Below, piece by piece: positions 41,851-64,000 of a stretch of 64,000 nt of DNA (position 1 is the stretch's first letter; each line of letters begins with the position of its first letter). Source of the stretch: Pseudochrobactrum saccharolyticum (lineage in GTDB: Bacteria; Pseudomonadota; Alphaproteobacteria; Rhizobiales; Rhizobiaceae); the NCBI RefSeq assembly GCF_008801715.1, contig NZ_VZPG01000006.1, positions 186,001 through 250,000 of the forward strand. Reading direction: 5' to 3'. Both the position numbers and the translations under genes were made by a program. The notes under the pieces are model-generated. The model did no database searches, was not told the DNA's origin, and was given only the letters and a program-made list of their open reading frames with translations.

Positions 41851-41922
41851 GTTATTTCTATTAAATCAAATAATTAGATAAAATCTTGGTTGTGAATTCA
41901 AACTTTCATCTGCACTAGTATA

Positions 41923-42002: not shown

Positions 42003-42059
42003 AACATCGCGCCTTGATGCTTTCACTCGGGTTGAGCTTGCAGGCCTTTCCTATAACAG

Positions 42060-42353
42060 TCAAAGTAGTGAAGCTTTACCTGAGATAAAGCTGAGCTGTT
42101 CCATATTTCGCAGCGGTCGAGATAGCATCTCCGAAACGGTAAGGATTAGTGGATGTATTGTCTCCTGAAAACGCTCATCCAAACAAGAGCAAAACTTATT
42201 TATTTTGTTGCACGCAGTCAGAATGTCCTGACCTTGATCTGACAGCACAAAGAGAAGGTCAATATCATTATACTTTTCTTGTCGAAAGAAGCTTCCGAAG
42301 CCATAGACCGAATGAATGCAACATTCATTATTCTCCGTAAACTGGATTACCAT
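42060..42353 (-). CDS. minimal nucleotidyltransferase (MNT-like, pol-beta fold)
   Basis: About 97 residues from ATG 42353. The segment SVYGFGSFFRQEKYNDIDLLFVL has the GS-x-n-DxD pattern of pol-beta-type nucleotidyltransferases (Gly-Ser loop and the D-I-D metal site). Such minimal NTases act as antitoxins with HEPN proteins, or in defence modules, by adding nucleotides to partner proteins or RNA. No HEPN partner (R-x4-6-H) is evident here. Last gene of a tightly overlapping minus-strand operon; its start overlaps the previous gene by 26 bases. Confidence 0.65.
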   Translation of the reverse strand: MVIQFTENNECCIHSVYGFGSFFRQEKYNDIDLLFVLSDQGQDILTACNKINKFCSCLDERFQETIHPLILTVSEMLSRPLRNMEQLSFISGKASLL

Positions 42354-42726
42354 CCTTGTCAGTAAAATGAAAACTCCAGTATTCACGTCGGAACAGCGCA
42401 CGGTAAAGCTCCCTTCCAGAATAGAGTCCAAGCTCGGCCTCTAGACAAAACTCTTTTGCGTCAGTTGTATAAGAATTCCAATTTCCGCCTACCGTTATTA
42501 TATGCAATGGTCCAAAACGAGCAACAAACTCTATTACTCGAGCAAGTGAACATGTGTATTCGTTACAAATAAGGATTGTGATTGCGTTCATATTTTTTAA
42601 TTGAACATCGAACACAATATCATCGCGCCTCGTATAGCCATCTACGGCAGGATGACCATCAAGAAACTCACAAAAATAAGCGATCTGAGAATACCTTACG
42701 CCAATATCGTTTGAACCGTTCGGCAA
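42328..42726 (-). CDS. unrecognised protein, possible nuclease-like fold
   Basis: About 132 residues from a TTG at 42726 preceded by AAAAGGA; an in-frame ATG at 42831 would overlap the previous gene by 164 bases. Features are RRDDIVFDVQLKNMNAITILICNEY and the stretch IITVGGNWNSYTTDAKEFC. The D-x(5-7)-Q-x-K arrangement and the TTDAKEF segment recall Mrr-like PD-(D/E)xK enzymes, but this is weak and structure prediction would be needed. Third gene of the operon with a nucleotidyltransferase behind it and overlapping both neighbours. Confidence 0.6.
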   Translation of the reverse strand: MPNGSNDIGVRYSQIAYFCEFLDGHPAVDGYTRRDDIVFDVQLKNMNAITILICNEYTCSLARVIEFVARFGPLHIITVGGNWNSYTTDAKEFCLEAELGLYSGRELYRALFRREYWSFHFTDKDGNPVYGE

Positions 42727-43327
42727 TGTTATTGTTCCTTTTAATAAGATCGGAGAAGCTGCCAGGGAATGTTGGATAATGATCGAGGCGAGTGAACTGA
42801 TGCTGCTCGAAGGCTCTTGCATGAGCCTCAAACGCCAACATCGCCGCTCTCTGATCTGCTGTCACTTCAAACCTAATACCTTTAATTAGTGCCAGTATCG
42901 CGCGATTGTTTGGGAGGATAGTATCCATTTTACGAGCGATCCATGTTAGATAAGCATTAGAGAAGGGGGTTTCGGCTGCGGTTTTAGAATGTGGGCCACA
43001 TTCATTAAAAACATACTCATTGTCCAAAAGAAAAGGCAAAACGCGGCTCGCAAACTCTGAAAAACTATTCGTTCTTTCAGGTTTCATGTCAGATTCAGCT
43101 TTGTGCAAGTAAACATCGTAACTGCGCTTAGCTTTGAGGCGGCTCTCATCAGTCATCAATACAACCGCAAGTTCTGAAATGAATTTCGACGTTTCATTCT
43201 GCTTTTCGGCAAGAATATTTATCAGCTTTTCAAGTTCATCTGGAATCAAGGTCGTGATAATCGTGTCTCGACCGCTTTGGATCGACAATCCACCGGATTC
43301 TACTTTCTGTCTCTGAACTATCATCAT
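42668..43327 (-). CDS. 219-residue protein with IQSGRDT motif, unknown function
   Basis: N-terminal motif GGLSIQSGRDTIITTL (residues ~12-27), then a helical region (DELEKLINILAEKQNETSKF), and a C-terminal domain with FNECGPHSKTAAETPFSNAYL, RKMDTILPNNRAILALIKG and a FEAHARAFEQHQF-x-RLDHYPTFP block. I recognise the last blocks as a recurrent family of hypothetical proteins in accessory DNA but know no function. The ATG (43327) overlaps the stop of the 59-residue gene (ATGA), so translation is probably coupled. Shares IQSGRDT with that small protein. Confidence 0.75.
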   Translation of the reverse strand: MMIVQRQKVESGGLSIQSGRDTIITTLIPDELEKLINILAEKQNETSKFISELAVVLMTDESRLKAKRSYDVYLHKAESDMKPERTNSFSEFASRVLPFLLDNEYVFNECGPHSKTAAETPFSNAYLTWIARKMDTILPNNRAILALIKGIRFEVTADQRAAMLAFEAHARAFEQHQFTRLDHYPTFPGSFSDLIKRNNNIAERFKRYWRKVFSDRLFL

Positions 43328-43503
43328 CTGTCTTTTAAATTGATCTTGGTATCTCGCCCCGATTGGATGCCGTTACCTTTCTGATTTTGTCTGATGCTCT
43401 TTCCGCTACGTTGCGAAAAAAAAGTCCACCCTATTATCGCCAGGATGATCATCACGATGATAGATATCAACGTCATTTGATTAGATGTGAGAAATTCTAG
43501 CAT
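43324..43503 (-). CDS. 59-residue single-pass membrane protein with IQSGRDT tail
   Basis: Small gene found by reading the gap upstream of the 219-residue gene. ATG 43503 to TGA 43324. Residues ~10-29 form a transmembrane helix (MTLISIIVMIILAIIGWTFF); the charged tail ends with GNGIQSGRDTKINLKDR, sharing IQSGRDT with the N-terminus of the next protein. The stop overlaps the next start by four bases (ATGA), which strongly supports it being real. Likely cytoplasmic tail and N-out topology (positive-inside: QRSGKSIRQNQK after the helix). Function unknown; a membrane anchor or effector for the downstream protein is inference. Confidence 0.72.
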   Translation of the reverse strand: MLEFLTSNQMTLISIIVMIILAIIGWTFFSQRSGKSIRQNQKGNGIQSGRDTKINLKDR

Positions 43504-43652
43504 TTACCTAATGTTCTCCATTTAGAATCAGAAACTAGCAGTAGATATTATAGCTAGAAGGTCCGAATTTGCCCAAGCAGGTAATATTTGAAGCCATACA
43601 TGATTTTAGGACAAATAAAAAATAAAGTGCAATGTAAGCAGTAATCCAGTAG

Positions 43653-43742
43653 CTCACAAAGCGCTGGCAAGCACAAGTCAACAGACGTGGAAATAAAACC
43701 AAGCTGCAAATCATTGGATGCAAAAACAGATACTCAATACTG
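43653..43742 (+). pseudogene. remnant of a tyrosine-integrase N-terminus
   Basis: Translates to RWQAQVNRRGNK and, after a frameshift, CKSLDAKTD, matching RWQAQVRRRGMK and CKSFDTKKD of the intact integrase at 44566. At DNA level CGCTGGCAAGCACAAGT and GCTGCAAATC are identical in both. It has an in-frame stop before and no continuation, so it is a decayed fragment of a related integrase. Confidence 0.7.
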
Positions 43743-43765
43743 TATAGGCTTCATTTTTCTTAAAT

Positions 43766-44503
43766 ATGATGGAGGAACAAAATAAGTTGGCTAGAACACA
43801 AGGACATGGAAATCCTAATTGGACGCGTGATGAGACCATTCTCGCCTTGGATCTGTATTTACAGTTCGATGGTATAGTTCCATCTACGAAATCAGAAAGC
43901 ATATCCGAACTTTCCAAATTGCTTCGTTCACTACCTTATCATGCCGAAGCCGCAAAGCAGCCCACGTTTCGAAATCCTGATGGGGTTGGCTTCAAACTTA
44001 TGAATATTCGCCAGGTGGCCACTGGAAAAGGTCTTGGTAATGTCTCCAATATGGACCGCCAGATATGGGCTGAATTCGGGCAGCGCCCAGAAGAAGTTAG
44101 ACTAATTGCCGATGCTATTAAGTCCGGGATCATAATTAACGGATCAGAGCAGTTACCGGAAATCGAACAAGAGCTTCCTGAAGGAAGGCTCTTGACCGCC
44201 CTACATATCAGGCGAGAGCGGAACCCAAAAATTCGAAAGATGCTGTTAGAAGACCGTCGCCGCTCAGGGTTACGGTGCGAGATTTGTGACCTGGCACGGC
44301 CTGACCTGGATGAGCCTCTCCAAGAGTCTATATTTGAAGCTCACCACCTGATACCCCTCTCTGAAGTCGGTGAACGCAAAACAAAGCTATCTGACTTAGC
44401 TTTGCTATGTGCTTGCTGTCATCGTCTTATTCATCGTGCCATGGCGTCAAAAACGAGATGGATTGGCCTCGTCGAAGCTCGCGCCATAATTGTGCCGGGA
44501 TAA
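43766..44503 (+). CDS. HNH endonuclease with N-terminal specificity-like domain
   Basis: 245 residues. The N-terminal part (WTRDETILALDLYLQFDG, FRNPDGVGFKLMNIRQVATGKG, IWAEFGQRPEEVRLIADAIKSG) is typical of HNH enzymes of the McrA/type IV group. The C-terminal HNH domain shows CEICDLARPDLDEPL, EAHHLIPLSEVGERKTKLSDLALLCACCHRLIH with the H-H / N-position / H residues and zinc cysteine pairs. Likely cuts invading (modified) DNA. The start is ambiguous: two ATGs (43766, 43769) precede GGAGG, which would serve a TTG at 43787. Confidence 0.82.
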   Translation: MMEEQNKLARTQGHGNPNWTRDETILALDLYLQFDGIVPSTKSESISELSKLLRSLPYHAEAAKQPTFRNPDGVGFKLMNIRQVATGKGLGNVSNMDRQIWAEFGQRPEEVRLIADAIKSGIIINGSEQLPEIEQELPEGRLLTALHIRRERNPKIRKMLLEDRRRSGLRCEICDLARPDLDEPLQESIFEAHHLIPLSEVGERKTKLSDLALLCACCHRLIHRAMASKTRWIGLVEARAIIVPG

Positions 44504-44565
44504 TCCTTGGCTCCCCATCCGGGGCATCCTACGCATGATCTTCAGTATCACCTGGAGATCATGCA

Positions 44566-45558
44566 ATGGCGACAATTCGCAAACTCAGAGGACGCTGGCA
44601 AGCACAAGTGCGCCGCCGCGGCATGAAACCCCGCTGCAAATCTTTCGATACCAAAAAAGACGCTGAGAAATGGGCGCGTGAGCTGGAAAGTCAGGTCGAT
44701 AAGTTCGGCGCCGCACCAGATACGCGCATTCTTGAAAGCACTACGCTCGGCGCGTTGATGAAGCGATACGCTGAAGAAGTATCACCATCGAAGCGTGGTG
44801 CTACTCAAGAGATACAGCGCCTCGGCGTGCTTCAACGTCATGATCTCGCTTATCGGACACTCATAGGCTTGTCTCAACAAGATATTGCTTTATTTCGCGA
44901 TGAACGTCTCCGGACAGTCAAACCCGCTACAGCCGTTCGTGAGCTTGCCATTCTCAGCCATGTCTTGGATGTAGCCATGCGTGATTGGGGTTATCCTCTC
45001 GCCCAGAACGTCGTGAAGATGATCCGTCGACCAACCATTAACAATGCAAGATCACGTCGCCTTACTCCATCAGAAGAACAGCGCTTATTAGCCGCCTGTG
45101 ACGACGGTAGGGTTGCATGCTTCCGTGCGCTGGTGATAGTAGCCATCGAGACCGGGATGCGTCGTGGTGAGCTTCTGGGACTCAAATGGAGCGACATTTC
45201 ACATAACCGCCGGGTGATCTCATTAGCCCTAACAAAAAACGGAACAAGCCGGGAAGTTCCATTATCATCCCGTGCATACGAAGCACTTATGTCACTTCAT
45301 CACAATGACAGTGTAGATCAATATATGCCATTCGGGATGACGATCTCTGCTTTTGATCAAACATGGAAACGAGTCATCAAACGCTCCGGCATCATTGATC
45401 TTAAGTTTCACGATTTGCGCCACGAAGCCGTCAGCCGTTTCTTTGAGCTAGGTCTAAACGTGATGGAAGTCAGCACGATCTCCGGACATAAAGAGCTATC
45501 AATGCTGAAGCGATACACACACTTGAGTGCCGATGCGCTGGTTGGCCGCCTTGGGTAA
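44566..45558 (+). CDS. tyrosine recombinase / integrase 1
   Basis: 330 residues. N-terminal arm-binding domain (RKLRGRWQAQVRRRGMKPRCKSFDTKKDAEKWARELE), core-binding domain (about 60-160) and catalytic domain with ETGMRRGELLGLKW (Arg I), HDLRHEAVSRF (H-x-x-R), GHKELSMLKRYTHL (His, Tyr nucleophile). Probably the integrase that inserts island 1 into tRNA-Ser. It is 2.7 kb from attL, with an HNH gene and a relic of a related integrase between, rather than at the att site as usual. Confidence 0.93.
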   Translation: MATIRKLRGRWQAQVRRRGMKPRCKSFDTKKDAEKWARELESQVDKFGAAPDTRILESTTLGALMKRYAEEVSPSKRGATQEIQRLGVLQRHDLAYRTLIGLSQQDIALFRDERLRTVKPATAVRELAILSHVLDVAMRDWGYPLAQNVVKMIRRPTINNARSRRLTPSEEQRLLAACDDGRVACFRALVIVAIETGMRRGELLGLKWSDISHNRRVISLALTKNGTSREVPLSSRAYEALMSLHHNDSVDQYMPFGMTISAFDQTWKRVIKRSGIIDLKFHDLRHEAVSRFFELGLNVMEVSTISGHKELSMLKRYTHLSADALVGRLG

Positions 45559-46056
45559 ATGCATCCGGAAGTAGAAACATAATGTTGTCACTACAACAAT
45601 AAGATTCAAAAAGTGACAACATAGCGATCGGAAAACGCTCAATTTTGTTTACATTCCGCAGCCAGAGCAACTCAAATGCTGTCAAAAACACCCGTTTTTG
45701 TTGACGTATGTTGACGAATGTTGACAAAAGTTTACGTTTTTCAGCTGATTTTGCTGTTTTTGGAAATCTGTCAACATTGGCACCTGAGCATTACCTGTCT
45801 ACCATCAGCAAAAGAGCCATGCACCCGATAGCAATCCGAATTGTAGATACATCTACCAATATAATAGTCTGACCACCGCAAATGTCATCGCTCAAAACCC
45901 TTGTGACACAGTAGCGAAAACATATTCGCAACTGATTATCAGGCACCAGCAAATCAGCCTATAAGCTGCATTCTGTCACCATCTTCCGGATATTAATTTT
46001 ATCACCGGATGACGCTGGATAAACCTCAATCGAAATAGTTTGCATGATCTGGACGA
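45559..46056. other. AT-rich gap after integrase 1, with iterons
   Basis: About 500 bases with no supported gene. Contains a run of 10-bp repeats at 45699-45738 and an inverted copy at 45769-45776. Otherwise nothing recognised. Confidence 0.5.
45699..45738 (+). repeat. 10-bp iterons TGTTGACGNA
   Basis: TGTTGACGTA, TGTTGACGAA, TGTTGACAAA, AGTTTACGTT in perfect tandem (10-bp period), plus an inverted TGTCAACA at 45769-45776. Helically phased repeats usually bind a replication or recombination-directionality protein. Confidence 0.7.
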
Positions 46057-46263
46057 TTGTCAGAGACGCGCCGCCGTTATCTTTTCTCTGCTCTGGTAAA
46101 ACGCAACCTCCTCATTCATCGCACCGCACTTCAAACCATCTGCCGGATTAATGCTGCCGCAGCAGTCGAAGTCCTAGAGAAATACAAGCCTAGTGATGGG
46201 GATGCCTTCTGGCTTCACCACATCTTTGTGACTGAAACCTCCCATACTGGAGCAAAGGCATAG
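46057..46263 (+). CDS. possible 68-residue hypothetical protein
   Basis: Open frame from a TTG with only a weak ribosome site. Basic N-terminal half (SETRRRYLFSALVKRN), no recognised domain, no signal or membrane segment. Codon usage is not clearly coding. Kept as a low-confidence gene. Confidence 0.3.
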   Translation: MSETRRRYLFSALVKRNLLIHRTALQTICRINAAAAVEVLEKYKPSDGDAFWLHHIFVTETSHTGAKA

Positions 46264-46705
46264 AAGCTCACTGGCGAGCGTCAACTATCCGGCAGCATAA
46301 TGCAGCAAAGAATACCACGGAGCGCGCCTGCGAGAATCCTCGAGTCAAATAGAAGACACCCGAAACACTTAACCGGTTGGCTGGAGCGTGTTTCATGGGA
46401 TTTGTAATTTTATCCAATCTTCCGGCAAACAAAAAATAACCAGTGGACGCCGAAGGCGGCCGTAAGCCCGAAGGGCGCGCAGACGAGCCGCGCCAGCGGC
46501 GAGGTATGAGGACATATCTGAACCGGAGAGACCCGTCACGCTTTAAGATATTTCTGTCTTTTACTTATTACTAATATTATTATTACGAATATTTATAAGT
46601 TATATATATAGGGAGAAACGTCACAAAACGTTACGCTCTTAAAACGGGCATTCCGGCAACCATTTTCGCTATAACCCAAGCATAAGAAATAGAAAGATTG
46701 CGGAA
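46264..46705. other. gap with a GC-rich mini-hairpin cluster
   Basis: About 440 bases. At 46449-46501 three small hairpins follow each other: GCC-GAA-GGC, GCCC-GAA-GGGC and CGCC-AGC-GGCG, in an otherwise AT-rich context; then an AT-rich tract to the next gene. Confidence 0.5.
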
Positions 46706-47221
46706 ATGAACAAGCAAAAAACTGATATGAGGAATCTCCCCTCTCCAGAACCCACGTCATCAGACTCAAATGCTAATACCTTATTCAATCCCCAGTCCGC
46801 TTTACGCAAAACGATCCAAAAATGGCAACAAAAGCTTGCGGTAGATATTGAAAGACAGCCCAACCTTATTGCGGCCGCATCAGCAGCAGAGGCGAGGAGA
46901 CGTTATCGCCTAGAAAAAGCAGTCGAAGGCAAAACCGTTCGTCCTTATAAGAAACATAAACTAGCCCCGTTTCAGTTTGGCGAGACACACGAGAGTCATA
47001 GAAAAAGAACTCATAAAGAACGTCAAAGGATTTATCGTGGCGTTACGGCTGAAACAGTGCGATCCTGGACGGATCTAAGCGTGATGTCTGAGGAAGAGAA
47101 AGCCGACCATATCAAACAAAAAAATAGAGAACGTCAGAAAAAATGGCGCCAGAAATCAGAGCCAACCACGAATGATCTCCATACAGAAATTGCCAAAGCA
47201 TTAGAAGATTTCGATTGTTAG
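46706..47221 (+). CDS. basic hypothetical protein
   Basis: 171 residues, highly charged, Arg/Lys/Gln-rich (AAEARRRYRLEKAVEG, HRKRTHKERQRIYRG, KNRERQKKWRQKS). No recognised domain; the composition would fit nucleic-acid binding or a coiled coil. Preceded by an AT-rich stretch suited to a promoter. Unknown. Confidence 0.55.
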   Translation: MNKQKTDMRNLPSPEPTSSDSNANTLFNPQSALRKTIQKWQQKLAVDIERQPNLIAAASAAEARRRYRLEKAVEGKTVRPYKKHKLAPFQFGETHESHRKRTHKERQRIYRGVTAETVRSWTDLSVMSEEEKADHIKQKNRERQKKWRQKSEPTTNDLHTEIAKALEDFDC

Positions 47222-47476
47222 CGCAGTCAATGAAAACAACATCATTGGCTTTGAAAGATATCTATCTTCTTCGCCATTACATAAAGACGCTCTGTGCGGG
47301 TTTACTAACCAGATTAACATTGTGAGATTCAAATATATGGAACGGTCAGCATCATAACGCATAATACTCAGGCAACGCCGCAGGCGAACGACGAATTCGA
47401 AGTAAAGCGGGAAATCGTTACGACCATCAACCGCTGCCCATGACTCGCTATGAGTCAACCAGAGCGCAGTGAAAGC

Positions 47477-48061
47477 TCATCCAACCGTGGCATCTTGCTT
47501 GAGTATCCGGATAAGGCTGCGAGGATGGACATTATAGTCCGCCGCAACGGCCGAAACTGTCCGACCATGTTCTTCAATCGCTATACGCGCAGCAATTCTA
47601 TCATCTGCAGTCAATGAAGGTTTTCGGCCGATCCTGCTACCTCTCGCACGCGCAACTCTCATGCCTGCTTTAGTGCGCTCGCTGATGATTGCACGTTCAA
47701 ATTCAGCCATAGCCCCCATAATATGAAAGGTAAGCCGACCGCCGGACGTTGAAGTATCTATTGCCTCGGTCAAAGAATGAAATTCAATTCTCTTCGCGGC
47801 GAGATCATTGATCAATGTGATCAGATCCACCAATGAGCGCCCGAGCCGATCAAGTCGCCAGACAACCAGCATATCCCCGTCGCGTAAAGAACGAAGCGCT
47901 TGATTAAGCCCCGGCCGTTCAAATCCAGCACCAGAAATACCGTGATCGCTAAAAATCTCAGTGCACTCAGCACGTTCCAATGCAGCCATTTGAAGATCAA
48001 GATTTTGATCGCTGGTCGATACTCGACAATAACCTATTTTCCACAATCTGACTGCCCTCAC
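47477..48061 (-). CDS. serine recombinase (resolvase/invertase)
   Basis: 194 residues. Catalytic domain IGYCRVSTSDQNLDLQ (Ser nucleophile in RVS), DHGISGAGFERPGL, VVWRLDRLGRSLVDL, AMAEFERAIISERTKAG; C-terminal HTH (GRTVSAVAADYNVHPRSLIRIL). Matches Tn3-type resolvases/DNA invertases. No transposase next to it, so it may be a remnant of a lost transposon or serve the island in dimer resolution. Confidence 0.92.
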   Translation of the reverse strand: MRAVRLWKIGYCRVSTSDQNLDLQMAALERAECTEIFSDHGISGAGFERPGLNQALRSLRDGDMLVVWRLDRLGRSLVDLITLINDLAAKRIEFHSLTEAIDTSTSGGRLTFHIMGAMAEFERAIISERTKAGMRVARARGSRIGRKPSLTADDRIAARIAIEEHGRTVSAVAADYNVHPRSLIRILKQDATVG

Positions 48062-48265
48062 CTATAGCCCACTACAAGCACATTTACTTGACGGGTCAAC
48101 AGCTATCATAGGCACTAAGCCATTGACTAAAAGGAACCTTTTTGTGCGGGCGGGGTTTTCTGTTGACCGCAGGAGACCCGCCAAAGGAAATCAGCAGGTT
48201 ACTGTGAGGGCGAAATAATCGGGTCAGTTATTGCGGAAGGGTTCCCTTTTGTGCAGCCAAACATC

Positions 48266-48859
48266 ATGAATGTCGCACAAATGAAGCTCGTTTCGTCCGC
48301 ATTTACAGCCATTGCTATTACTCTCGGCACCATGAACGCTTCAAACGCCGAACAAGTAAACATCCCGCTATTTCTTGAAGGGCCGACGGCAGAAACGACG
48401 ATTGACGCACTCAGAGTGATCTTCCGCAGTGAACTGGTCGACCAAAACCTGACAGAACGCACAATAACAGAACGACCACGTGTCTCGCTGTCGTGCAACG
48501 ACAAAAAACTACAAGTTCTCCATCTTTACATACCCAAAGATTTAAACCCTTGGAAATCGCTCACGAAAAGCTTCAGCACAAAAGGCGAAGTGAAATCTGT
48601 CGGCGCGTTTTCCGCCTTCACCGGAAGCGTATTAGCGGCAAATATTGGGGAAGGTCTTGATATCTCAATGGATGTTGGCAGCACGGCCGCAGGCATTGGC
48701 CGATCTTGGTATGATGGGATGTCAATCACGATAGACATTCCATCAGCTGATGATCTACCGGAACTAAATATTGTTCTATTTGGAGCTGAGCCAAGACCAC
48801 ATTTCAGAACTGAAATGGCTGCCACAATTAAAGCCTGTGAAATCTTATCTGGTTCATAA
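48266..48859 (+). CDS. secreted hypothetical protein
   Basis: About 197 residues from ATG 48266 (an in-frame GTG at 48251 also possible). N-terminal signal peptide (MKLVSSAFTAIAITLGTMNASNA, cleavage after SNA), then a beta-rich mature region without recognised motif (VSLSCNDKKLQVLHLYIP, GLDISMDVG, MSITIDIPSADD). Two to three cysteines, possibly a disulfide. Function unknown. Confidence 0.6.
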   Translation: MNVAQMKLVSSAFTAIAITLGTMNASNAEQVNIPLFLEGPTAETTIDALRVIFRSELVDQNLTERTITERPRVSLSCNDKKLQVLHLYIPKDLNPWKSLTKSFSTKGEVKSVGAFSAFTGSVLAANIGEGLDISMDVGSTAAGIGRSWYDGMSITIDIPSADDLPELNIVLFGAEPRPHFRTEMAATIKACEILSGS

Positions 48860-49291
48860 TCTGATTTTGTGTATTTGGAGCACGTAATCCGGCTCTAAAT
48901 CCTCAGACGCTATCTGAGTATTACAGATAATTACTGCAACATGATCATTACGATCATTTGTTTACACCAACTCAGGCACCCCAATCATTCATGTGGCAAC
49001 CGTTGCACTATCAATCAAACATAGAGAGAAAATGGCTATCCACAGTAGTCGATTCCTATGAAATCTTATCCGCATCCCATATGCTTTTTTAAAAAACGAG
49101 TTGAAGCGCCCTAAGTTAGAACGATGCGTATTTTTCAACCATTTTTCTATATCTATTCCCCCCTCTTTCTATACATACGAGTTATAAACCACATACTAGG
49201 GTATATCTCGCTTTGGGGATCTTGTTTTTCTCAAAAGCGTAGCCTATGTTTTTAGTGAAATTTATTGATAAATGAGCAGGATGGAAATTTC
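48860..49291. other. AT-rich region upstream of the methyltransferase
   Basis: About 430 bases without a supported gene; likely holds the methyltransferase promoter. No C-protein box or repeat was recognised. Confidence 0.4.
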
Positions 49292-50932
49292 GTGAGAGCA
49301 ATAGACCTTTATTCTGGAATTGGCGGATGGAGTCTAGGTCTGAAATTGGCCGGTATAGATGTAGTTGCATCATATGAATGGTGGCAACCTGCTATTGATA
49401 CACACAATGGAAACCACAACGGCAATCTCACACCAATTAATATCCGAAACTTAAAAATTGAGGATTTGCCAAAAGACATCGATATTGTTGTCGGTAGCCC
49501 ACCATGCACTGAATTCTCTTACGCAAACCGTGGGGGAAAAGGCAATGTAGCAGAAGGTATGAAGGATTTAGTCAAGTTTCTCGAGATTGTAGAGTATTTA
49601 CGCCCTCAATACTGGGCGCTCGAAAATGTGCCTAGGGTGGCTGATGTTTTACATCAGGGTTTTTTGAACCCTGATCATCCTTTGTATCGTTTTAAAGCTT
49701 TAAAACCCGAGATTGAGGTCATTGATTTTTCAGATTATGGGACCGCACAGGCGCGTAAGCGTTGCATTGCAGGCAACATTCCATTTGATCTACTTAAAAG
49801 CTATGCAAATAAGCTACCATCCCGAACCTTAGGTGATGTTGTTAATGCTTTTAAAGCTATCGACAATGTGGCCGACCCTCACTGGGGAGTAATACTTCCA
49901 GCAATCCAAGTTACTGAAACTCAAGAAGAAGTAGCCTTGAACGCGGAAGAGCTAAGAATGAATCGGGAGGCCAAAACATTCCATCCAGTATATAACAATA
50001 TGGCCTTTCCGGATAATTTAAACCAAAGAGCAAGAACCGTTACAGCTACCTGCACGCGCGTATCTAGAGAAAGCATTGTAATTGAAAATCCTAAAATTCC
50101 TGGATCATTTCGCCGCCTAACAATTCGCGAAAGAGCCAGTCTACAGGGATTTCCGATTACATATCAATTCTTTGGTAGATCGTTTGCAGAAAAAGCCAAA
50201 ATGGTAGGCAACGCTATCCCACCAACATTTACCTATTTACTGGCACAGGCTGCTAAGAAGACTGCACTTGAAAATCTAAAGAATTTTCACGACGCAGGAA
50301 TTTCACTCGAACTACCACTAAAGCTATCCAAAGTTACACCGCTTGATAAGGAAGGTAAAACTTACCCTACAACAAGAAGCTTTCGTGCTGCATTACCATA
50401 TCTACGATTTAAAAGTGGTATGAGGTTTGATTTGTCAAACGAATTTCAGACCGGTAACGTAAACTGGAAAGTTCGCTTCTATTTCGGTCCATCGAAAGAT
50501 ATTCACGAAGTAACGCTCGATGGCAGCCTTGAAAAAGAACTCCGCGCATCCCCTTTAATCAAACATATTATACAGAATCTTCAGCCGAGATTTGAACAGG
50601 CTCAAAAAGAACTTTGGACGACATCTCCTGCAGGAGTTCAAGCTAGTTGGTCTCATCGCAATGCTGGTCTCGGTCCGTATGAAGTTGTAGACATCTTAGG
50701 TGAGCTAGCAGACTATCTTTACGAAAAAATCACACAACTTCATAATGACGCTCATCAAGAAGAGCAAATAACAGCTTACGTTCTAATGATAGCAAGCGAA
50801 AATACAAAAGATGGGAATTTACCCGGGCAAAAGAAAATTGAAAAAAATGCTACTCGGATATTGAGTGGATTATTTATCGCAGATTGGTTTAATAATCTTC
50901 CATGGCATAATACAGAACGTGTTGCAGCCTAA
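49292..50932 (+). CDS. C5-cytosine DNA methyltransferase
   Basis: Type II modification enzyme of about 546 residues. Motif I DLYSGIGGWSLGL, motif IV GSPPCTEFSYANRGG (catalytic Cys of PC), motif VI ALENVPRV (ENV), motif VIII GTAQARKRC (QxRxR), and motif X VGNAIPP near residue 315. About 220 residues follow motif X, an unusual extension of unknown fold. GTG 49292 follows AGGATGG; the TTG at 49265 is less likely. Next to two restriction enzyme genes of the BglII/BstYI type, whose sites it presumably protects. Confidence 0.92.
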   Translation: MRAIDLYSGIGGWSLGLKLAGIDVVASYEWWQPAIDTHNGNHNGNLTPINIRNLKIEDLPKDIDIVVGSPPCTEFSYANRGGKGNVAEGMKDLVKFLEIVEYLRPQYWALENVPRVADVLHQGFLNPDHPLYRFKALKPEIEVIDFSDYGTAQARKRCIAGNIPFDLLKSYANKLPSRTLGDVVNAFKAIDNVADPHWGVILPAIQVTETQEEVALNAEELRMNREAKTFHPVYNNMAFPDNLNQRARTVTATCTRVSRESIVIENPKIPGSFRRLTIRERASLQGFPITYQFFGRSFAEKAKMVGNAIPPTFTYLLAQAAKKTALENLKNFHDAGISLELPLKLSKVTPLDKEGKTYPTTRSFRAALPYLRFKSGMRFDLSNEFQTGNVNWKVRFYFGPSKDIHEVTLDGSLEKELRASPLIKHIIQNLQPRFEQAQKELWTTSPAGVQASWSHRNAGLGPYEVVDILGELADYLYEKITQLHNDAHQEEQITAYVLMIASENTKDGNLPGQKKIEKNATRILSGLFIADWFNNLPWHNTERVAA

Positions 50933-51546
50933 TTATCAGGCGCAATTCCAAATAAAACGAGTGGCACAGGTGGCACCCCCCGCCCCTCTCGAATAAGATT
51001 ATAAAGTTCGGCCTCATAATATCCGGGGCCGGACGACATTTTTTCCTGTAAGCATTTCATTGGGATTATCTCAATACCCACATCAATCTGATCAGCAACA
51101 TAAAAAGCCATATGCTTTACAAATAAATCATATGCAATAAACGCATACTTACCCAGCTGAACCTCTACAGCCACTCTTTCTTTAACAAAGTCCGTTTGGT
51201 TTTTTGATCTATACGGCGTAAATCCCGACTGAATAATTTCTCTTTTCTGCTCGGTAGCCGTTAAATCCATTACTCTACGATTTGTTCGAGCATCCTCACA
51301 AACCCAATAATGAGTTACAACTGGCTTCCAATCATTCTTATAAAATCCTAGCTCAAAGGCTTTGTTCAAATCTTTAGGTGAATAAAGTTTTTGTGATAGC
51401 TTTCTTTGCTCTTTGGAGATTTTAGTTCTGCAGGATGCTGCATCAATTGAAGCAACCACATTTTGTATTTCATTAAGAAGTAGCGGTTTCCTTGCTTCCA
51501 AGAACTCTAAGCCATTTAGATGCGAATGGTAAGTTACAATTTTCAC
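50929..51546 (-). CDS. BglII-family type II restriction endonuclease (nuclease 1)
   Basis: About 205 residues from a GTG at 51546 (51549 also possible). Active-site segment SKNQTDFVKERVAVEVQLGKYAF holds D and ExQ as in BglII, with DLFVKHMAFYVADQIDVGIEIIPMK and EAELYNLIREGRGVPPVPLVLFG around it. The family cuts GATC-centred sites. Convergent with the methyltransferase (4-base overlap at the ends) and divergent from nuclease 2. Sequence-specific target not determinable. Confidence 0.8.
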   Translation of the reverse strand: MKIVTYHSHLNGLEFLEARKPLLLNEIQNVVASIDAASCRTKISKEQRKLSQKLYSPKDLNKAFELGFYKNDWKPVVTHYWVCEDARTNRRVMDLTATEQKREIIQSGFTPYRSKNQTDFVKERVAVEVQLGKYAFIAYDLFVKHMAFYVADQIDVGIEIIPMKCLQEKMSSGPGYYEAELYNLIREGRGVPPVPLVLFGIAPDN

Positions 51547-51705
51547 CACGCCCCCGTTATCGTTCGAGATACAATAATTATAAAATAATTTCCCATTACA
51601 ACTCGCATAACACATAGAGAATACAAATTTAAGGTAGCCTAAACCCGAGTTTTATTGCTAGGCTTATTTCGAACCAATACACATAAAATCGGGGAACATA
51701 TTGTA

Positions 51706-52512
51706 ATGTTTGAAGCTTTGCGGGAACGCGGTTTCCAGATCGAATTTCAGTCTCATGCTCAAGCTATTCTTCAGATAGATTTTCCCGAAGTAGTTAGTGA
51801 ACTTGAAAGTGCATTATTAAATACCACAATACCAATCGAAGAAATAATTGCCGGCGGAGGTGGTGAAGCAAAAGGAACCCAACGATTACGTAATGCACTA
51901 AATGGAATAGGTTGGCCAAAAACAGAGTTTACTGTAGAGCGGCGTATAAACGGGGTTCCGCGTGAAAGCCAATCACACGAAGTCGATCATGTGCGCACGT
52001 TTGAAAATGGTGACCGAGTTGCGTTAGAGATTGAGTGGAACAACAAAGACCCATTCTTTGACCGCGATCTCGAAAACTTCAAAAGACTTCATGCAGATGG
52101 TGCAATCTCCGTCGGCATTATAATCACAAGAGGAAAATCACTTCACGAAGGGATGAGAACCTTAGTTCGTCGGTTTTTAGATGAACGCCAAATTCAATCA
52201 TTTGAAGACATTCGAGAATGGGGTTATGAACCAACTTCTAGACAAAGAAAAGCAATTGAAACCAGGATTAATAGGCTTACAAATCCATTTACCTTTAGAG
52301 AAGCATTTGTTGGGCAATTTGTTTCTGACAAATTCGGAGAAGCAACCACTCATTGGCGCAAATTAGATGATCGCTTACACCGTGGCGTAGGCAACCCATG
52401 CCCTTTATTATTAATTGGCATTCCTGATACTGTGATTACCTTTCATGAAGGTAAGGCTGCTCTAGCCGAGCTTGAGGCAGAGGATTCACAGAACGAAACT
52501 CTTATTCTTTAG
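51706..52512 (+). CDS. BglII/BstYI-like restriction endonuclease (nuclease 2)
   Basis: 268 residues from ATG 51706 with GGGGAAC upstream (a TTG at 51655 is in frame). Active-site region HEVDHVRTFENGDRVALEIEWNNKDPFFDRDL contains D and ExE, the arrangement of BamHI/BstYI-type enzymes; FVGQFVSDKFGEATTHW and GVGNPCPLLLIGIP follow. Clearly different from nuclease 1 in sequence but of the same broad fold group. Divergently oriented from nuclease 1, sharing the intergenic region. Confidence 0.78.
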   Translation: MFEALRERGFQIEFQSHAQAILQIDFPEVVSELESALLNTTIPIEEIIAGGGGEAKGTQRLRNALNGIGWPKTEFTVERRINGVPRESQSHEVDHVRTFENGDRVALEIEWNNKDPFFDRDLENFKRLHADGAISVGIIITRGKSLHEGMRTLVRRFLDERQIQSFEDIREWGYEPTSRQRKAIETRINRLTNPFTFREAFVGQFVSDKFGEATTHWRKLDDRLHRGVGNPCPLLLIGIPDTVITFHEGKAALAELEAEDSQNETLIL

Positions 52513-52610
52513 TCAATGTTGTTTTTCTCTCCTCTGGATGAAGAACTCTCTTATGAGCTCCTATTAAAAACGATACGTATTAATTTGGAATAAAGTGCAG
52601 CAATTTGATT

Positions 52611-52641
52611 ATTGTGCCGGAGGACACTCCTCCGGCACAAT
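52611..52641. repeat. perfect 14-bp inverted repeat near attR
   Basis: ATTGTGCCGGAGGA-CAC-TCCTCCGGCACAAT. No T-run follows, so it is not a clear terminator; could be a recombination-protein site or an mRNA stabiliser for nuclease 2. Confidence 0.75.
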
Positions 52642-52751
52642 GCGTCCACAACGCTGTTTTGTATATCCACCCCGCTTCGGATCAACAATCACAATACAAA
52701 CAATAATTTTTATGCGTAACGCATTGAAAATGGTTTAGTTTTTACTAGACC

Positions 52752-52814
52752 CCGCACTCGAAATGCGGCGTGGGGGCAACTCCATCGTGGGTTCGAATCC
52801 CACCCTCTCCGCCA
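52752..52814 (+). repeat. attR: right copy of the tRNA-Ser 3' 63 bp
   Basis: Identical over 63 bases to 41788-41850 but not preceded by the 5' part of a tRNA, so it is not a functional tRNA. Marks the right border of island 1 and the left border of island 2. Confidence 0.93.
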
Positions 52815-52908: not shown

Positions 52909-54606
52909 ATGACTCGTAAGAATTCGCATCGGCTCCAGAAGCGAAGCGACACTTTCTATTTTCGTGCCGCTATCCCGATCAAGTGGCGACCAGCTTTCTC
53001 GCGTGCTGAACTCAAGTTCTCCTTGCAAACGACAGATCGCATGCTAGCGAATATCCGGTGCAGATCACTGAGTAGCGCTTTCGATTGGTTCTTCGGAGTA
53101 AACAACATGGCACAGATACCGCTTGATCGTATTCATTCCGTCGCTCAAGCATATTTTCAAGAGCGCCTTACGAAAGCACTAGAGCTCTGCCTCGACCTTC
53201 CGAGCGACGTTGATGTGGACCTCAATTTTGAGATCCAAGGCTCACTTGAACGCATAAGCGCCCTAAAATCTATGATGAAAAAACATCGCTACGATGACTC
53301 AGTAGAATTAGACGCACGAGCACTGTTGGAAAAGACAGGTAATGAAGGCCCAGCAGACGATGCGCTCACATATATAAGACGCCTCGTGGCCAGAGCCATG
53401 ATACTCCAGAATGAATACCTTGTTCAGGAGCTATCAGGGGGCACGTATAATGGGGCGCCGGACGATAGCGTATTTAGAGGCATAGGGCCCGGTGCACTTC
53501 CTGAAGACGGAGACATAGCAACCGATCATGATCTGAGCATTAGAACAGCTATTGAAAGTTTCATGGCTTTGAAGGATACGGTATGGGTGCCTAAAACAAA
53601 AGCTGATTACAAGCGCTGCCTCTTACTAGCAAGCGACGTGATTGGCGCTGACCGTCCACTATCAAGCGTCAAAGCGGATGACATACGTAAAGTGCGCGAC
53701 GTGCTGATGAGCATGCCAGCCAACGCATTTAAGACATATGTTGTATCGGGTCAAAGCCTGAAAAAGATCATCACTGATAATGCTGACGGTTCCAAGCTAG
53801 CATTCAAGACTCGTGAAAAGTATTTTACGATGATCCGCACTTTCTTCAAGTGGGCTGTAGACGAAGAGAAGCTGGCACAAATGCCGGGTAAAGGTATTAA
53901 ACTTGTCGGGGGAATGAAGGAAGCCGAAATTGAAGAGCGCGATCCATATTCTAAAGATGAGCTTTTAAAAATATTTTCATCACCGCTTTACGCAGGATCC
54001 AAATCTTTCAGTCGTCGCTACATTCCGGGGACTATGACTGAACGGGATGACTACTTCTGGATACCAATCGTTGCCCTGTACACGGGAATGCGACTCGGTG
54101 AAATCGTTCAGTTACGTTTGACTGACCTTAAGTCTGAGGATGGTGTACCGTACTTCAACGTGTCCTTAGATGGTGACAAGCAAAAGACAGTGAAGACCGC
54201 TCAGTCAATTCGACGCGTTCCTGTTCACCCCATACTTATTTCGCTTGGACTATTAACCTACGCCGCAGCCCGAGAAAAAGCCAACCGACAACGACTATTT
54301 GATGACATCAAACCGAGTAAGACGGGGTATTACTCAGCAAACTTCTCAAAATGGTGGGGTCGCTACAGTCGCAAAATTACTGTTCACACCGACAAAACAG
54401 CATTCCACAGTTTCCGCCACAATTTTACTGATGCTCTACGTGAAGCAGAAGTAGCGGATGACGTCAGTCGGCAATTAACAGGCCATGCCGACAAGCCGGG
54501 TGACAGCCACGCTCGCTACGGAACAAAGGCGAGTCTGAAGCGGCTACGCGAGGGGATCATCAAGATAAGCTATGGCTCAATCGACGATCTCTTAAATAAA
54601 GTCTAA
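52909..54606 (+). CDS. tyrosine integrase 2 with DUF6538-type N-terminus
   Basis: 565 residues. N-terminus HRLQKRSDTFYFRAAIPIKWR with LQTTDRMLANIRCRSLSS is the DUF6538-like domain; catalytic domain YTGMRLGEIVQLRLTDL (Arg I), FHSFRHNFTDALREAEV (H-x-x-R), LTGHADKPGDSHARYGT. Starts 95 bases after the attR tRNA fragment, reading away from it, the layout expected of an element integrated at the tRNA. No further tRNA copy is present downstream in the window, so its far att is missing or outside. Confidence 0.9.
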   Translation: MTRKNSHRLQKRSDTFYFRAAIPIKWRPAFSRAELKFSLQTTDRMLANIRCRSLSSAFDWFFGVNNMAQIPLDRIHSVAQAYFQERLTKALELCLDLPSDVDVDLNFEIQGSLERISALKSMMKKHRYDDSVELDARALLEKTGNEGPADDALTYIRRLVARAMILQNEYLVQELSGGTYNGAPDDSVFRGIGPGALPEDGDIATDHDLSIRTAIESFMALKDTVWVPKTKADYKRCLLLASDVIGADRPLSSVKADDIRKVRDVLMSMPANAFKTYVVSGQSLKKIITDNADGSKLAFKTREKYFTMIRTFFKWAVDEEKLAQMPGKGIKLVGGMKEAEIEERDPYSKDELLKIFSSPLYAGSKSFSRRYIPGTMTERDDYFWIPIVALYTGMRLGEIVQLRLTDLKSEDGVPYFNVSLDGDKQKTVKTAQSIRRVPVHPILISLGLLTYAAAREKANRQRLFDDIKPSKTGYYSANFSKWWGRYSRKITVHTDKTAFHSFRHNFTDALREAEVADDVSRQLTGHADKPGDSHARYGTKASLKRLREGIIKISYGSIDDLLNKV

Positions 54607-61191: not shown

Positions 61192-61635
61192 TCTGTGACA
61201 TTCGCATCAACATGCCAAGCGGCGACGCATTCCAACTTGGATAACTATCTATTATCACGATTTATAATTAGCCTACTTATTTGACTAATAATCAAATCGC
61301 ACATAGCGCAACGCTCAAAAGCTTTCAATCTCTAAACAAAGCTGTGGTTGCGAGATAAGTTTCTCTACATTGCAATCATCAAATTAATTAACGTCAGCTT
61401 AGAACAACCGAAACGGGCTCTATGGCCGATCATCAACTTGCGTTAACACTGATGAAAATGTGGCCAGCAAGGTTACAAGGCTATATCTTGCCGATTGGAA
61501 GTCAAAACCGACTTCCAACCCAGCATAATTTTTGACTGAACCATATTCGTCAATGTGCTGACTTACGAACATTTGTTAATTGCATTGACGTTGCCTCTCA
61601 GCCTAATGTGGAAACCGAATTATGGGGGGAGCGAA
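61192..61635. other. intergenic region upstream of the sigma factor gene
   Basis: About 440 bases, AT-rich, presumably with the divergent promoters of the hydrolase and the sigma-factor operon. No clear -35/-10 pair or operator recognised. Confidence 0.4.
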
Positions 61636-62904
61636 GTGCATAGTACGAAGATGTCCGTCTTCCAAAGCGATATGCTGCTGAAAGAGAAGCTTGGAGGAAA
61701 AGACCCCGTGCGCGATGCGCTGGCGATCTACGGCGAGGACGATAAATTAGAGATAGCTTCTAGCGCCGCTGTTTCCGAACAAGAGAACTCTCAATTCGCT
61801 TCCGAAGCGAGAATTGAAAAAGCCCTGAACGCGCTTCTCGCCGATTGGCGGCGGCAGGACCAAACGCTCGACAGATCTCAATTCGAAAGGGTCGTTCATC
61901 GCCGCAAGCTGGAAGCCGATGAAATAGTCGAAGTTCTACAGCAACTCCGCGCGCACGGGGTCGTGCTTGAAGGGCTCGACGACGATGAAGAGATCGTCAC
62001 CTTATCGCCGGAGGATGCGCGCCGATCTGGAGATGACTTCGTAGTTGGTTACTTCAGAGCCAAGCTTCTCACTCGAGAAGAAGAAGTTCGTTTCGGACGA
62101 GCTGTACAGATAGGCATCGTCGCCCAACATGAGGAGCAGGCAGGTCACTACGCAGATGATCTCGGTAAATTAATCGCCGAAGGCGAGAAGGCTCGCGCCA
62201 AAATGGTCGTCGCCAACCTGCGCTTGGTCTTTAGCGTCGCCCGCAAGTTTGGGAGCAAGGCGATAGAATTTCCCGATCATATCCAGAACGGCACAATTGG
62301 CTTGATGAGAGCCATTGAGGGATTTGATCCGGAACTCGGTCTAAAGTTCGCGACCTATGCTACATGGTGGATTAGGCAATCCATTTCGAGAGCGAACGAC
62401 AACGATAGCAATCTGATCCGAATGCCAGTCCATCGTCTTGAGCAGATCCGAAGGGTTCGTCGTCACACGCGTCGCTTGACCATGGAGAACAATCGCGGGC
62501 CGACCCTGGGCGAGCTGTGTGACGCATTAGACATGCCTCGCGAGAAGGTCGCGTATCTTCAAAGATTATCACTATTTCGGACAACTTCGCTCGACGCTCC
62601 TTTAGGCGACGAAGACGACATTCACCTCCGCGATATTATTCCTAGTGATGCCCCGACACCGGAGGACCTCACTGAAATCTGGTCTCGTAACAAGCTCCTG
62701 AAGCAATTGATTGAGGAACTCTCTCCTCGCGAGCAGATGATCCTGGATCGCCGTTTCGGCCTCACGACGCGATCCGGCCGCACGCTCCAGGAACTCGGAA
62801 ACGAAATCGGCGTAACGCGCGAGCGCATCCGTCAGATCGAAGATAAAGCTTTGAAGAAACTCTACCGTAAAGCTCTCAGATATATGCGGGCACTGGAGGA
62901 CTAG
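61636..62904 (+). CDS. accessory RpoD-like sigma-70 factor
   Basis: About 422 residues from GTG 61636 (GGGGGAG upstream, 4-base spacing; ATG 61651 also possible). Region 1.1-like N-terminal segment (RIEKALNALLADWRRQDQTLDRSQF), region 2 (ANLRLVFSVARKFGSKAIEFPDHIQNGTIGLMRAIEGFD, FATYATWWIRQSISRA), region 3 (GPTLGELCDALDMPREKVAYLQ), region 4 (REQMILDRRFGLTTRSGRTLQELGNEIGVTRERIRQIEDKAL). Complete primary-type sigma, but located in an island and followed by a helicase-like gene after 3 bases. Probably directs transcription of its own operon. Confidence 0.9.
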   Translation: MHSTKMSVFQSDMLLKEKLGGKDPVRDALAIYGEDDKLEIASSAAVSEQENSQFASEARIEKALNALLADWRRQDQTLDRSQFERVVHRRKLEADEIVEVLQQLRAHGVVLEGLDDDEEIVTLSPEDARRSGDDFVVGYFRAKLLTREEEVRFGRAVQIGIVAQHEEQAGHYADDLGKLIAEGEKARAKMVVANLRLVFSVARKFGSKAIEFPDHIQNGTIGLMRAIEGFDPELGLKFATYATWWIRQSISRANDNDSNLIRMPVHRLEQIRRVRRHTRRLTMENNRGPTLGELCDALDMPREKVAYLQRLSLFRTTSLDAPLGDEDDIHLRDIIPSDAPTPEDLTEIWSRNKLLKQLIEELSPREQMILDRRFGLTTRSGRTLQELGNEIGVTRERIRQIEDKALKKLYRKALRYMRALED

Positions 62905-62907
62905 AAA

Positions 62908-64000
62908 GTGACAGTGCAGGAACTCGCAACCACCGATGACTGTGTAAAATTCACGCAATGGCTGGAGCGCCGACTCCTTATCGCCGGACGTGGCGACGAG
63001 ATTATGGCTTCGGCAAACGATCCGGCCGGTCGCTTTTGGTTGGGACGGCTCGCTCCCGAGGAACAAGTCAATGAGGGCTCGTCCGCTGAGCGTATCGGTC
63101 GGATGGAACCGTGTGCGATAGGTATTCGTCTCCTACCGACCTCAGTCGCCCCGTGGTCGTGTACTGCACGGGTACGTCTGCGAGTATGGATCCCGCAAGG
63201 ACCAGACTGGATCAAATCGGACGAAATAGACGAGACGTTTCCCCTGGCTGTGCAGGATCGTTACCAGCAGTCATTTGGTTGCAAAATTCTTACCGACGCG
63301 ATCCATGCGGCGACTGGAACAGAAGGTTTGTCAGCAGAAATGCGAGTCGAGGTTACTCCCGGTCCGAGCGGTGTGCCCGAGTTGTTGTTCGAGATCGTCA
63401 ACACATCCCCGCGCAAACACCAGTTCTTCACCGATACTCGCCTTTACGAGGTTTCGTTATCCTTGAACGGGATAGAAACGAAACCCTACCTTCTGGAAGC
63501 CTTACCCGACTCGTTCCGCTACGACAGGGAAGTATCTGCATACGGAGTGAATTGCGGGGTGGTCGCGGAAGACGGAACATTCACAACGACCGATACGATA
63601 GGAGTAGAAAAAGCAAGACCGGACTATTGGGGAGCAGGCCTTCCACCGTTGAAGTTCGCAGATCTGGAGCGTGATCCATTTCCCGATCTCTCGGCGTTGT
63701 TAGATGCCTTGCGCCAATGGGGAGACGATATCTGGTCGTCCACGTCGCTTGATGCTCGCGCCGCGGCGAATGGGTGGTCCGCCGAGATGAGGAATGAAGC
63801 AAGAAAGGAGGCGACGAAGTTCGACGTCGAATTTGATCGGATCAAAAAAGGACTGTTTCATCTTAGCGCCAACGCCGATCTGCTGAGATCTTTCAGACTC
63901 ATGAACCGTGCCATGGAAAGAGCTTCGCAAGGTAGGGGTTACAATTCCTGGAGGCCTTTCCAGGTTGGGTTCATCTTGGCGAACCTCGCCTGCATCGTCG
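62908..64000 (+). CDS. large protein, DISARM DrmA-like helicase N-terminus (incomplete)
   Basis: Open to the window end, at least 364 residues. GTG 62908 has GGAGGA 7 bases upstream and follows the sigma-factor stop by 3 bases. The N-terminal ~270 residues are a beta-rich region (MEPCAIGIRLLPTS, CTARVRLRVWIPQGPDW, ELLFEIVNTSPRKHQFFTDTRLYEVSLSLNG); then AFrlm-like SFRLMNRAMERA and SWRPFQVGFILANL. The WRPFQ-F-L-NL signature resembles DrmA, the helicase of DISARM-type defence. The ATPase motifs would lie beyond the window, so this is a tentative call. Confidence 0.55.
   Translation, partial: MTVQELATTDDCVKFTQWLERRLLIAGRGDEIMASANDPAGRFWLGRLAPEEQVNEGSSAERIGRMEPCAIGIRLLPTSVAPWSCTARVRLRVWIPQGPDWIKSDEIDETFPLAVQDRYQQSFGCKILTDAIHAATGTEGLSAEMRVEVTPGPSGVPELLFEIVNTSPRKHQFFTDTRLYEVSLSLNGIETKPYLLEALPDSFRYDREVSAYGVNCGVVAEDGTFTTTDTIGVEKARPDYWGAGLPPLKFADLERDPFPDLSALLDALRQWGDDIWSSTSLDARAAANGWSAEMRNEARKEATKFDVEFDRIKKGLFHLSANADLLRSFRLMNRAMERASQGRGYNSWRPFQVGFILANLACIV

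Follow-up and report, generated by a model that had tools for sequence, protein, structure and literature searches.

A gene for an RpoD-type sigma factor directly precedes a gene for a DrmA-type helicase near the right end of a 64,000-nucleotide stretch of Pseudochrobactrum saccharolyticum DNA (C6:186001-250000, hereafter the window), and the same pair was found in relatives from five bacterial phyla. On balance, and with modest confidence, we read the pair as belonging to a defence operon related to DISARM (defence island system associated with restriction-modification), that has an RpoD-like sigma factor of its own as a regular component, there to get the operon expressed. The genome measures 3.76 Mb in 12 contigs, and the contig ends at 260548, 10.5 kb past the window. 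The coordinates of all features are collected in Table 1.

The sigma gene, whose longest open frame begins at 61555, ends with a TAG stop codon (62902-62904) that is followed by AAA and then by the GTG start of the drmA gene at 62908, and GGAGGA closely precedes this GTG. The sequence-only reading of the window had described a complete RpoD-like sigma gene ending three bases ahead of a large gene with a ribosome site, and the open reading frame 61636-62904 and the GGAGGA bear this out. It had also taken the large gene for a DrmA-like helicase on account of a SWRPFQVGFILANL motif. The continuation past the window encodes a DrmA-type protein of 1019 amino acids (aa), and the motif lies in a stretch that already matches DrmA inside the window. 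To the right there are motifs of a helicase and partners of the DISARM type (DrmA, a DrmB-type protein and a cytosine methyltransferase); the outcome named as fatal to the proposal, a continuation without helicase motifs or with unrelated downstream genes, was not encountered. A search for conserved sigma-helicase pairs, which had been suggested as a check, showed that the pair is kept across phyla, confirming the pairing as real.

The frequency of the pairing was surveyed in 48 loci that were fetched from genome contigs by DrmA alone, using two DrmA peptide patterns. The patterns came from two sigma-bearing members, and the share of loci with a sigma factor is therefore valid for near DrmA relatives only. 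The sigma factor was detected by phmmer with the window sigma in 37 of the 48 loci. With the window and two plasmids added, it is present in 40 of 51 loci, or 40 of 52 when a Cupriavidus plasmid locus (L015) is included; this locus has a more distant DrmA (33% identity) and no sigma factor by phmmer, and was left out of the 51-locus counts. The 40 sigma-bearing loci belong to Pseudomonadota, Actinomycetota, Myxococcota, Acidobacteriota and Planctomycetota. Among 16 control DrmA loci outside the clade no sigma factor was found with a profile that recovers all 40 positives. The controls were 11 and 5 loci from two genome searches, with flanks of ∼8 kb where the contig allowed; five of the 11 scored above the NCBI DrmA cut-off, and two of the 16 are weak (L130, a 3.4-kb contig, and L140, with a DrmA-like frame of 212 aa only). 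Since 37 of 48 stands against 0 of 16, the pairing exceeds chance. The 11 loci without the sigma factor comprise eight of one branch with a DrmC-type phospholipase D (PLD) nuclease, one from Salinispora (L058) and two incomplete, uninformative contigs (L029, which stops in the NERD gene, and the 3.4-kb fragment L061).

DrmA matches were obtained in 85 plasmid records, three of which were opened. By annotation, a Roseomonas plasmid carries sigma-drmA-drmB-methyltransferase and a Burkholderia plasmid (L014) carries a broken drmA, drmB and then a NERD helicase and the sigma factor on the opposite strand; the Cupriavidus plasmid is described above. The Burkholderia drmA is split into several frames, with an IS3-type transposase between it and the larger drmB frame (L014 11941-17939). 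RpoD-like sigma matches were present in 466 plasmid records. Besides the two with drmA, four of these were opened, and no gene named DrmA or DrmB stood beside the sigma gene in them. In one of the four, from Tsukamurella, genes for a DEAD/DEAH helicase and for a methyltransferase lie at most 6 kb from the RpoD-like sigma gene.

In 34 of the 40 sigma-bearing loci, the sigma gene directly precedes drmA on the same strand. The gap to the nearest in-frame start codon ranges from -20 to +29 bases, and a 4-base overlap occurs in 14 of the 34. In the remaining 6 of 40 the sigma gene heads the opposing strand, behind the NERD helicase.

The sigma factor was found to be co-inherited with DrmA rather than to track the host. 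Over 25 loci, sigma divergence correlated with DrmA divergence (r 0.82), also when host RpoD was held constant (partial r 0.80; 0 of 2000 permutations were as high), and its correlation with host RpoD vanished once DrmA was given (partial r -0.01). The Mantel correlation between sigma and DrmA was 0.93 over 39 loci, and the sigma factor follows DrmA over DrmB (partial r 0.47 vs 0.15). Searches of 25 host genomes yielded only 2-6 RpoD-type matches per genome at E<=1e-30. For the sigma tree, the 40 sigma factors were combined with 31 RpoD-type sequences (the 30 matches in the 25 host genomes that became loci and the one of P. saccharolyticum itself) and with two RpoH-like sequences of the latter. 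The 31 RpoD-type sequences group in a single clade (99/93), to which none of the 40 belongs; recruitment from each host's own rpoD is unsupported by the tree and by the partial correlation. The 40 sit on long branches, some of them with poor placement, and the tree does not show them to be strictly monophyletic: two changes are needed on the tree, because the RpoH rows root between the 40 and RpoD. A quick DrmA tree of 50 rows was supported by the Shimodaira-Hasegawa-like approximate likelihood ratio test only, with the broken L014 and the fragment L061 excluded. In it the sigma-less PLD branch is nested among sigma-bearing branches, beside a locus with both sigma and PLD (L063), and loss of the sigma gene is thus the simpler reading.

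Membership of the sigma factor in the RpoD/SigA type is indicated by Pfam (Sigma70_r2, r3 and r4 exceed their cut-offs, r1_2 is under its cut-off), by a residue census with some exceptions and by fold matches. For the census, the 40 sigma factors were compared with the RpoD of P. saccharolyticum; the numbering, which we take to be that of E. coli, was checked on W433/W434, Q437/T440/R441 and R584/E585/R588. In region 2.3-2.4 (FATYATWWIRQSISR in the window), T429, Y430 and W434 are identical in all 40 and W433, Q437 and R441 in 39. R451 is likewise identical in all 40, F427 in 38 and H455 in 35. In region 4.2, E585, R586, R588 and Q589 are present in all 40 and R584 in 39, and positions 596 and 599 in the tail of this region vary. 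Of the five core-binding positions looked at, two, D403 and Q406, are invariant. Since the majority of promoter-reading positions, though not every one, is retained in a protein that otherwise diverges, these sequences point to a working sigma factor that would have a roughly ordinary promoter taste.

All 40 sigma factors also align over an N-terminal domain. A profile built from the 40 rows was distantly similar to RpoD region 1.1 in hhalign (probability 93.8, E 1.7e-7) at an identity of only 10 percent, and against whole RpoD it again fell on region 1.1 (83.7 percent, E 8e-6). Two further alignments comprised 37 and 35 rows; in the latter, R73 is invariant and D70 nearly so. The AlphaFold model of the window sigma had a mean pLDDT (predicted local distance difference test) of 84.6 and a pTM (predicted template modelling score) of 0.56. 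Apart from one SigA-RpoC model, the 50 PDB matches listed were entries of RNA polymerase in initiation or as holoenzyme; SigA/RpoD predominates among them, and some have SigmaS. Their template modelling (TM) scores were below 0.4 on query length, with a root-mean-square deviation near 20, which may perhaps be due to differing domain placement.

The genes downstream identify the window operon as a DISARM-related variant, as far as profile matches go. DISARM classes 1 and 2 are made up of DrmA, DrmB, DrmC, DrmMI or DrmMII and DrmD/DrmE. The helicase matched PADLOC DrmA (3.7e-109) and NCBIfam DrmAS (1.4e-113), the latter at 381 bits under a curated cut-off of 950; in Pfam, Helicase_C was over and DEAD under the cut-off. 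The DrmB-type protein matched PADLOC DrmB (5.6e-29) in its C-terminal part only, reached 58 bits in NCBIfam against a cut-off of 240 and had no Pfam match at 0.01. The methyltransferase matched PADLOC DrmMII (5.8e-86), and the generic MTase_II model scored higher. No PLD protein was found among the eight genes scanned from the sigma gene through an O6-methylguanine methyltransferase gene, nor among the upstream genes scanned. The relation to DISARM that the sequence-only reading had proposed is thus partly supported: DrmA, the DrmB-type protein and the cytosine methyltransferase agree with it, and the operon is a variant rather than canonical DISARM because no DrmC-type PLD was found and DrmA and DrmB lie under the NCBI curated cut-offs. 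Beyond the HNH gene follow a GGDEF protein and then the O6-methylguanine methyltransferase, which look like ordinary chromosomal genes.

Neighbour families, which were BLAST clusters named from one or two representatives, showed that the standing part of the system is DrmA, DrmB and mostly the sigma factor, and that the nuclease or helicase module is exchanged. DrmB is present in 50 of the 51 loci, the exception being the fragment L061. A NERD-UvrD helicase occurs in 16 of the 40 sigma-bearing loci and DrmD and/or a IIG/DrmMI-like enzyme in 13, one of which has NERD too; an SRA-HNH protein occurs in three, PLD in one (L063), and none of these in eight, within the DNA covered. The SRA-HNH family stands directly after drmB in L043, L049 and L059, and its L049 member was assigned SAD_SRA and HNH by Pfam. 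Judging from these domains, it might be a nuclease of the 5-methylcytosine-recognition type where DrmC might stand. In sigma-less loci a protein of ∼790 aa is encoded directly before drmA (L055:7626-9995, with relatives in L046, L051, L052 and L061); the L055 protein had no match in Pfam or PADLOC.

The upstream regions were searched for promoters and DNA-damage motifs. In an actinobacterial branch of 15 members with DrmD-type neighbours, an exact GAACN4GTTC palindrome lies before the sigma gene (before drmA in L058) in 8 of 15, and L023 has it with one mismatch; all 51 loci (1.06 Mb) contain 28 exact sites. A TTGTCG-N11-TACNNT element follows the palindrome in 8 of the 15, seven times after the exact form and once after the L023 form. 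The relaxed pattern TTGTC[AG]-N10-12-TANNNT occurred nine times in 0.98 million strand-bases of 23 actinobacterial loci, and eight of these lie within the branch. The spacing equals that of the RecA-NDp consensus, tTGTCRgtg - 8 nt - TannnT (PMC5656591). PafBC acts via RecA-NDp-type promoters (PMC6789036) and is activated by single-stranded DNA (PMC11804915). Because an SOS-type palindrome is combined with a RecA-NDp-type promoter of the published spacing, and PafBC responds to single-stranded DNA, the motif-bearing members of this branch are likely to be induced by DNA damage, as judged from these motifs. The eight motif-bearing members are kin and therefore do not represent eight independent events. 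As to the regulatory role that the sequence-only reading had proposed, freedom from host control or a reaction to phage takeover, the promoter evidence comes from part of this branch only, and there it points to induction by DNA damage. In Salinispora oceanensis (L058, 9677-9965) the block of palindrome and TTGTCG promoter stands directly before drmA without a sigma gene, unlike in the Salinispora loci L028 and L030.

In the window itself, GAACATTTGTTA ahead of the sigma gene resembles the actinobacterial palindrome. Its first 11 letters occur three times in the genome, once at the start of a gene that is presumably rplU, and the genome's own lexA locus has a GTTCN7GTTC site; for these reasons SOS control of the window operon via GAACATTTGTTA is not claimed. 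Five exact GTTCN7GTTC sites were present in 10 alphaproteobacterial loci, none closely ahead of a sigma operon. The exact form CTGTN8ACAG occurred once in 19 loci, in a planctomycete (L025 4764-4779), ∼50 bases before a methyltransferase open reading frame upstream of the sigma gene.

The usual view is that defence operons rely on the transcription of the host, a process that phages often seize. The operon described here would unite the DrmA helicase and its DrmB partner with a cytosine methyltransferase and with a nuclease or helicase module that can be exchanged. Its sigma factor probably binds the host core RNA polymerase and would lead it to promoters of the housekeeping type, among them those of the operon itself. 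This could turn the defence on and maintain its transcription after arrival in a new host, or during an infection in which the host sigma is inactivated. In part of the one actinobacterial branch, DNA damage may be the trigger, through the SOS-box-type site and the PafBC-type promoter, and the sigma factor would be made first and serve as an amplifier or relay. What the sequences show is the order of the genes, their conservation, the joint inheritance of sigma factor and DrmA, the kept DNA-reading residues and the motif block. We infer antiviral function, core binding, the target promoters and independence from the host sigma, and the protective function in particular is suggested by analogy with DISARM relatives. 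If the reading is true, immune systems can come with a private route to RNA polymerase, a primary-type sigma factor of their own, in five phyla; relatives in several phyla that carry the sigma factor suggest that defence brings its own transcription control. The system also marks out a branch of DISARM that mostly keeps the sigma factor and exchanges the nuclease module, and raises a testable question: are such operons active after the host sigma is disabled?

Several observations weigh against a dedicated sigma factor serving the operon. A scan ahead of the window sigma gene revealed no good sigma-70 promoter; two sites were detected, both on the minus strand, against a shuffle mean of 1.5. 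The damage-type motifs were not found outside the 15-member branch, and each is missing in 7 of the 15. The palindrome is weakly supported as a LexA site in that branch. Around the main lexA, the exact form was present in one of five actinobacterial genomes (Plantactinospora, two sites), one-mismatch forms only in three, and neither form in one; ∼1.7 one-mismatch forms are expected per 3.6 kb (from 492 in 1.06 Mb). The lexA-like loci L123 and L124 had neither the exact nor the one-mismatch form. In three genomes, each with 13 to 31 occurrences of a stricter pattern, CGAACNNNNGTTCG, the letter-reversed controls gave 6, 3 and 1, and the sites ahead of sigma or drmA in those three genomes do not match it. 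Salinispora L058 and the eight loci of the nested PLD branch are without the sigma factor, so that the system can exist without it. Within the protein, the core-binding positions 407, 409 and 413 agree with RpoD in 20, 16 and 20 of the 40. T440 is kept in 8 and E458 in 23; R423 is kept in 7, with K in 15 others, and Y425 in 12, with F in 21 others. Finally, the RpoD-like specificity means that the sigma factor would not be operon-specific.

Three other explanations were weighed. The sigma factor could be a working part of the defence that opens promoter DNA on the invader, the exposed single strand being what DrmA-DrmB requires for loading, so that helicase and nuclease would be aimed at promoters of the incoming DNA. 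DNA melting by sigma factors usually requires the core polymerase, and this, together with the 6 of 40 loci in which the sigma gene lies away from drmA and the sigma-less relatives that retain DrmA and DrmB, makes the idea rather unlikely. It would fit the melting positions looked at (T429, Y430, W433, W434 and F427), kept in 38 to 40 of the 40, the closer tracking of DrmA than of DrmB by the sigma factor and its gene's mostly adjoining or overlapping drmA, as well as Serratia DrmAB, which binds single-stranded DNA with a 5' overhang and is autoinhibited by a trigger loop (PMC9142583). In its specific form, a targeting subunit that melts strong housekeeping-type promoters on phage DNA, the opened strand giving DrmA-DrmB its entry and promoters being the mark of the invader, it is unlikely.

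Phage anti-sigma factors are well known, and the sigma factor could instead be a bait that mimics the housekeeping sigma they hit, its capture freeing or activating DrmAB. The very fast divergence of the sigma factors (over the 25 loci their median identity is 0.376, that of host RpoD 0.611) with key features retained would agree with this, but conservation is strongest on the DNA contacts, which a bait does not need, and positions 596 and 599 vary; we regard a bait as decidedly unlikely. That the gene is an accessory sigma merely hitch-hiking in defence islands that move, or a copy of rpoD in decay, is highly improbable and is already disfavoured. The locus does lie on a probable integrative element at tRNA-Ser and some relatives lack the sigma gene, but its adjacency is kept over five phyla and in two gene arrangements with none in 16 controls, it is co-inherited with DrmA, its DNA contacts are near-invariant and it falls outside the host RpoD clade. 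Expression of the operon by its own sigma factor remains the reading that we prefer.

Compared with known systems, the operon shares with DISARM the DrmA-type helicase followed by a DrmB-type protein and the 5-methylcytosine methyltransferase matching DrmMII, and some relatives share DrmD with a IIG/DrmMI-like enzyme, or a DrmC-type PLD. It differs in the sigma factor and, in the window copy, in having a NERD-UvrD helicase and an HNH protein but no PLD; DrmC is apparently non-essential (PMC9142583). No description of a sigma factor in DISARM was found in the open-access literature searched, a scope outside which most subscription papers lie. An RpoD-like sigma is likewise part of the MZA defence operon, where mzaA is termed a sigma factor (PMC9523054), but no MutL-, Z1- or AIPR-type match was found among the neighbours scanned with Pfam. 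The window sigma was not identified as MzaA (NF041931): it scored 239 bits against a cut-off of 800, with residues 166-411 matching the last third of the profile only, and none of 249 genomes searched in the phylum gave a hit above the cut-off, the lower matches being most likely RpoDs. ARMADA, TALON and BRIGADE, among others, are also YprA-type helicase systems, and TALON has a NERD nuclease (PMC12458937), but TALON's TPR-CSD and TBP genes were not seen here; in the main text of that paper 'sigma' occurs twice, both times as a supplier's name. CapH-CapP, CapW/BrxR and CapK-CapS couple DNA damage or single-stranded DNA to defence expression, DISARM included (PMC13373217). They are repressors with their own sensors; in the loci studied here, part of the one actinobacterial branch has SOS sites of the host type and PafBC-type sites ahead of the sigma gene.

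Table 1. Features of the window and its continuation; positions above 64,000 are window coordinates past its end.
Feature	Position	Strand	Remark
tRNA-Ser	41761-41850		
63-bp copy of tRNA-Ser 3' end	52752-52814	+	probable left end of element with sigma operon
Tyrosine integrase	52909-54606	+	Pfam Phage_integrase 1.6e-9, DUF6538 6e-12; adjoins 63-bp repeat
GAACATTTGTTA	61567-61578	+	11 of 12 letters of actinobacterial palindrome; possibly chance
RpoD-type sigma gene	61636-62904	+	422 aa, GTG start; conserved partner of DrmA helicase
Region-1.1-like N-terminal domain	61816-61980	+	residues ∼61-115; invariant R73, near-invariant D70 (35-row alignment)
Sigma region 2.3-2.4, FATYATWWIRQSISR	62347-62391	+	most -10 reading and melting residues retained
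Sigma region 4.2, TRERIRQ	62815-62835	+	-35 reading residues retained
drmA-type helicase gene	62908-64000, on to 65967 (L002:1909-4968)	+	1019 aa
drmB-type gene	65964-67673	+	569 aa; overlaps drmA
NERD-UvrD helicase gene	67670-69292	-	540 aa; PADLOC RTasNERD-Hel 5.7e-62
C5 cytosine methyltransferase gene	69454-70578	+	374 aa; Pfam C5 methylase 1.2e-57
HNH protein gene	70623-71375 (L002:9624-10376)	+	250 aa
20-bp copy of tRNA end	71871-71890		past HNH gene

The simplest reading of the repeats in Table 1 is that there are probably two tandem integrative elements at tRNA-Ser (41761-52814 and 52815-71890), the second of which, ∼19 kb long, would carry the sigma operon. A phage origin of this DrmA clade was considered and dropped, as no match was obtained in the phage collection and no relative among viral contigs. 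At 49265-52512 the window encodes a 555-aa cytosine methyltransferase and two adjoining BglII-type endonuclease genes. This methyltransferase is 44% identical to the one ahead of drmA in L027; some methyltransferases of sigma-bearing DISARM loci and a BglII-type restriction-modification enzyme are therefore relatives. Each element also has an HNH protein, and the one at 43766-44503 is 36% identical over 221 columns to that of the sigma operon.

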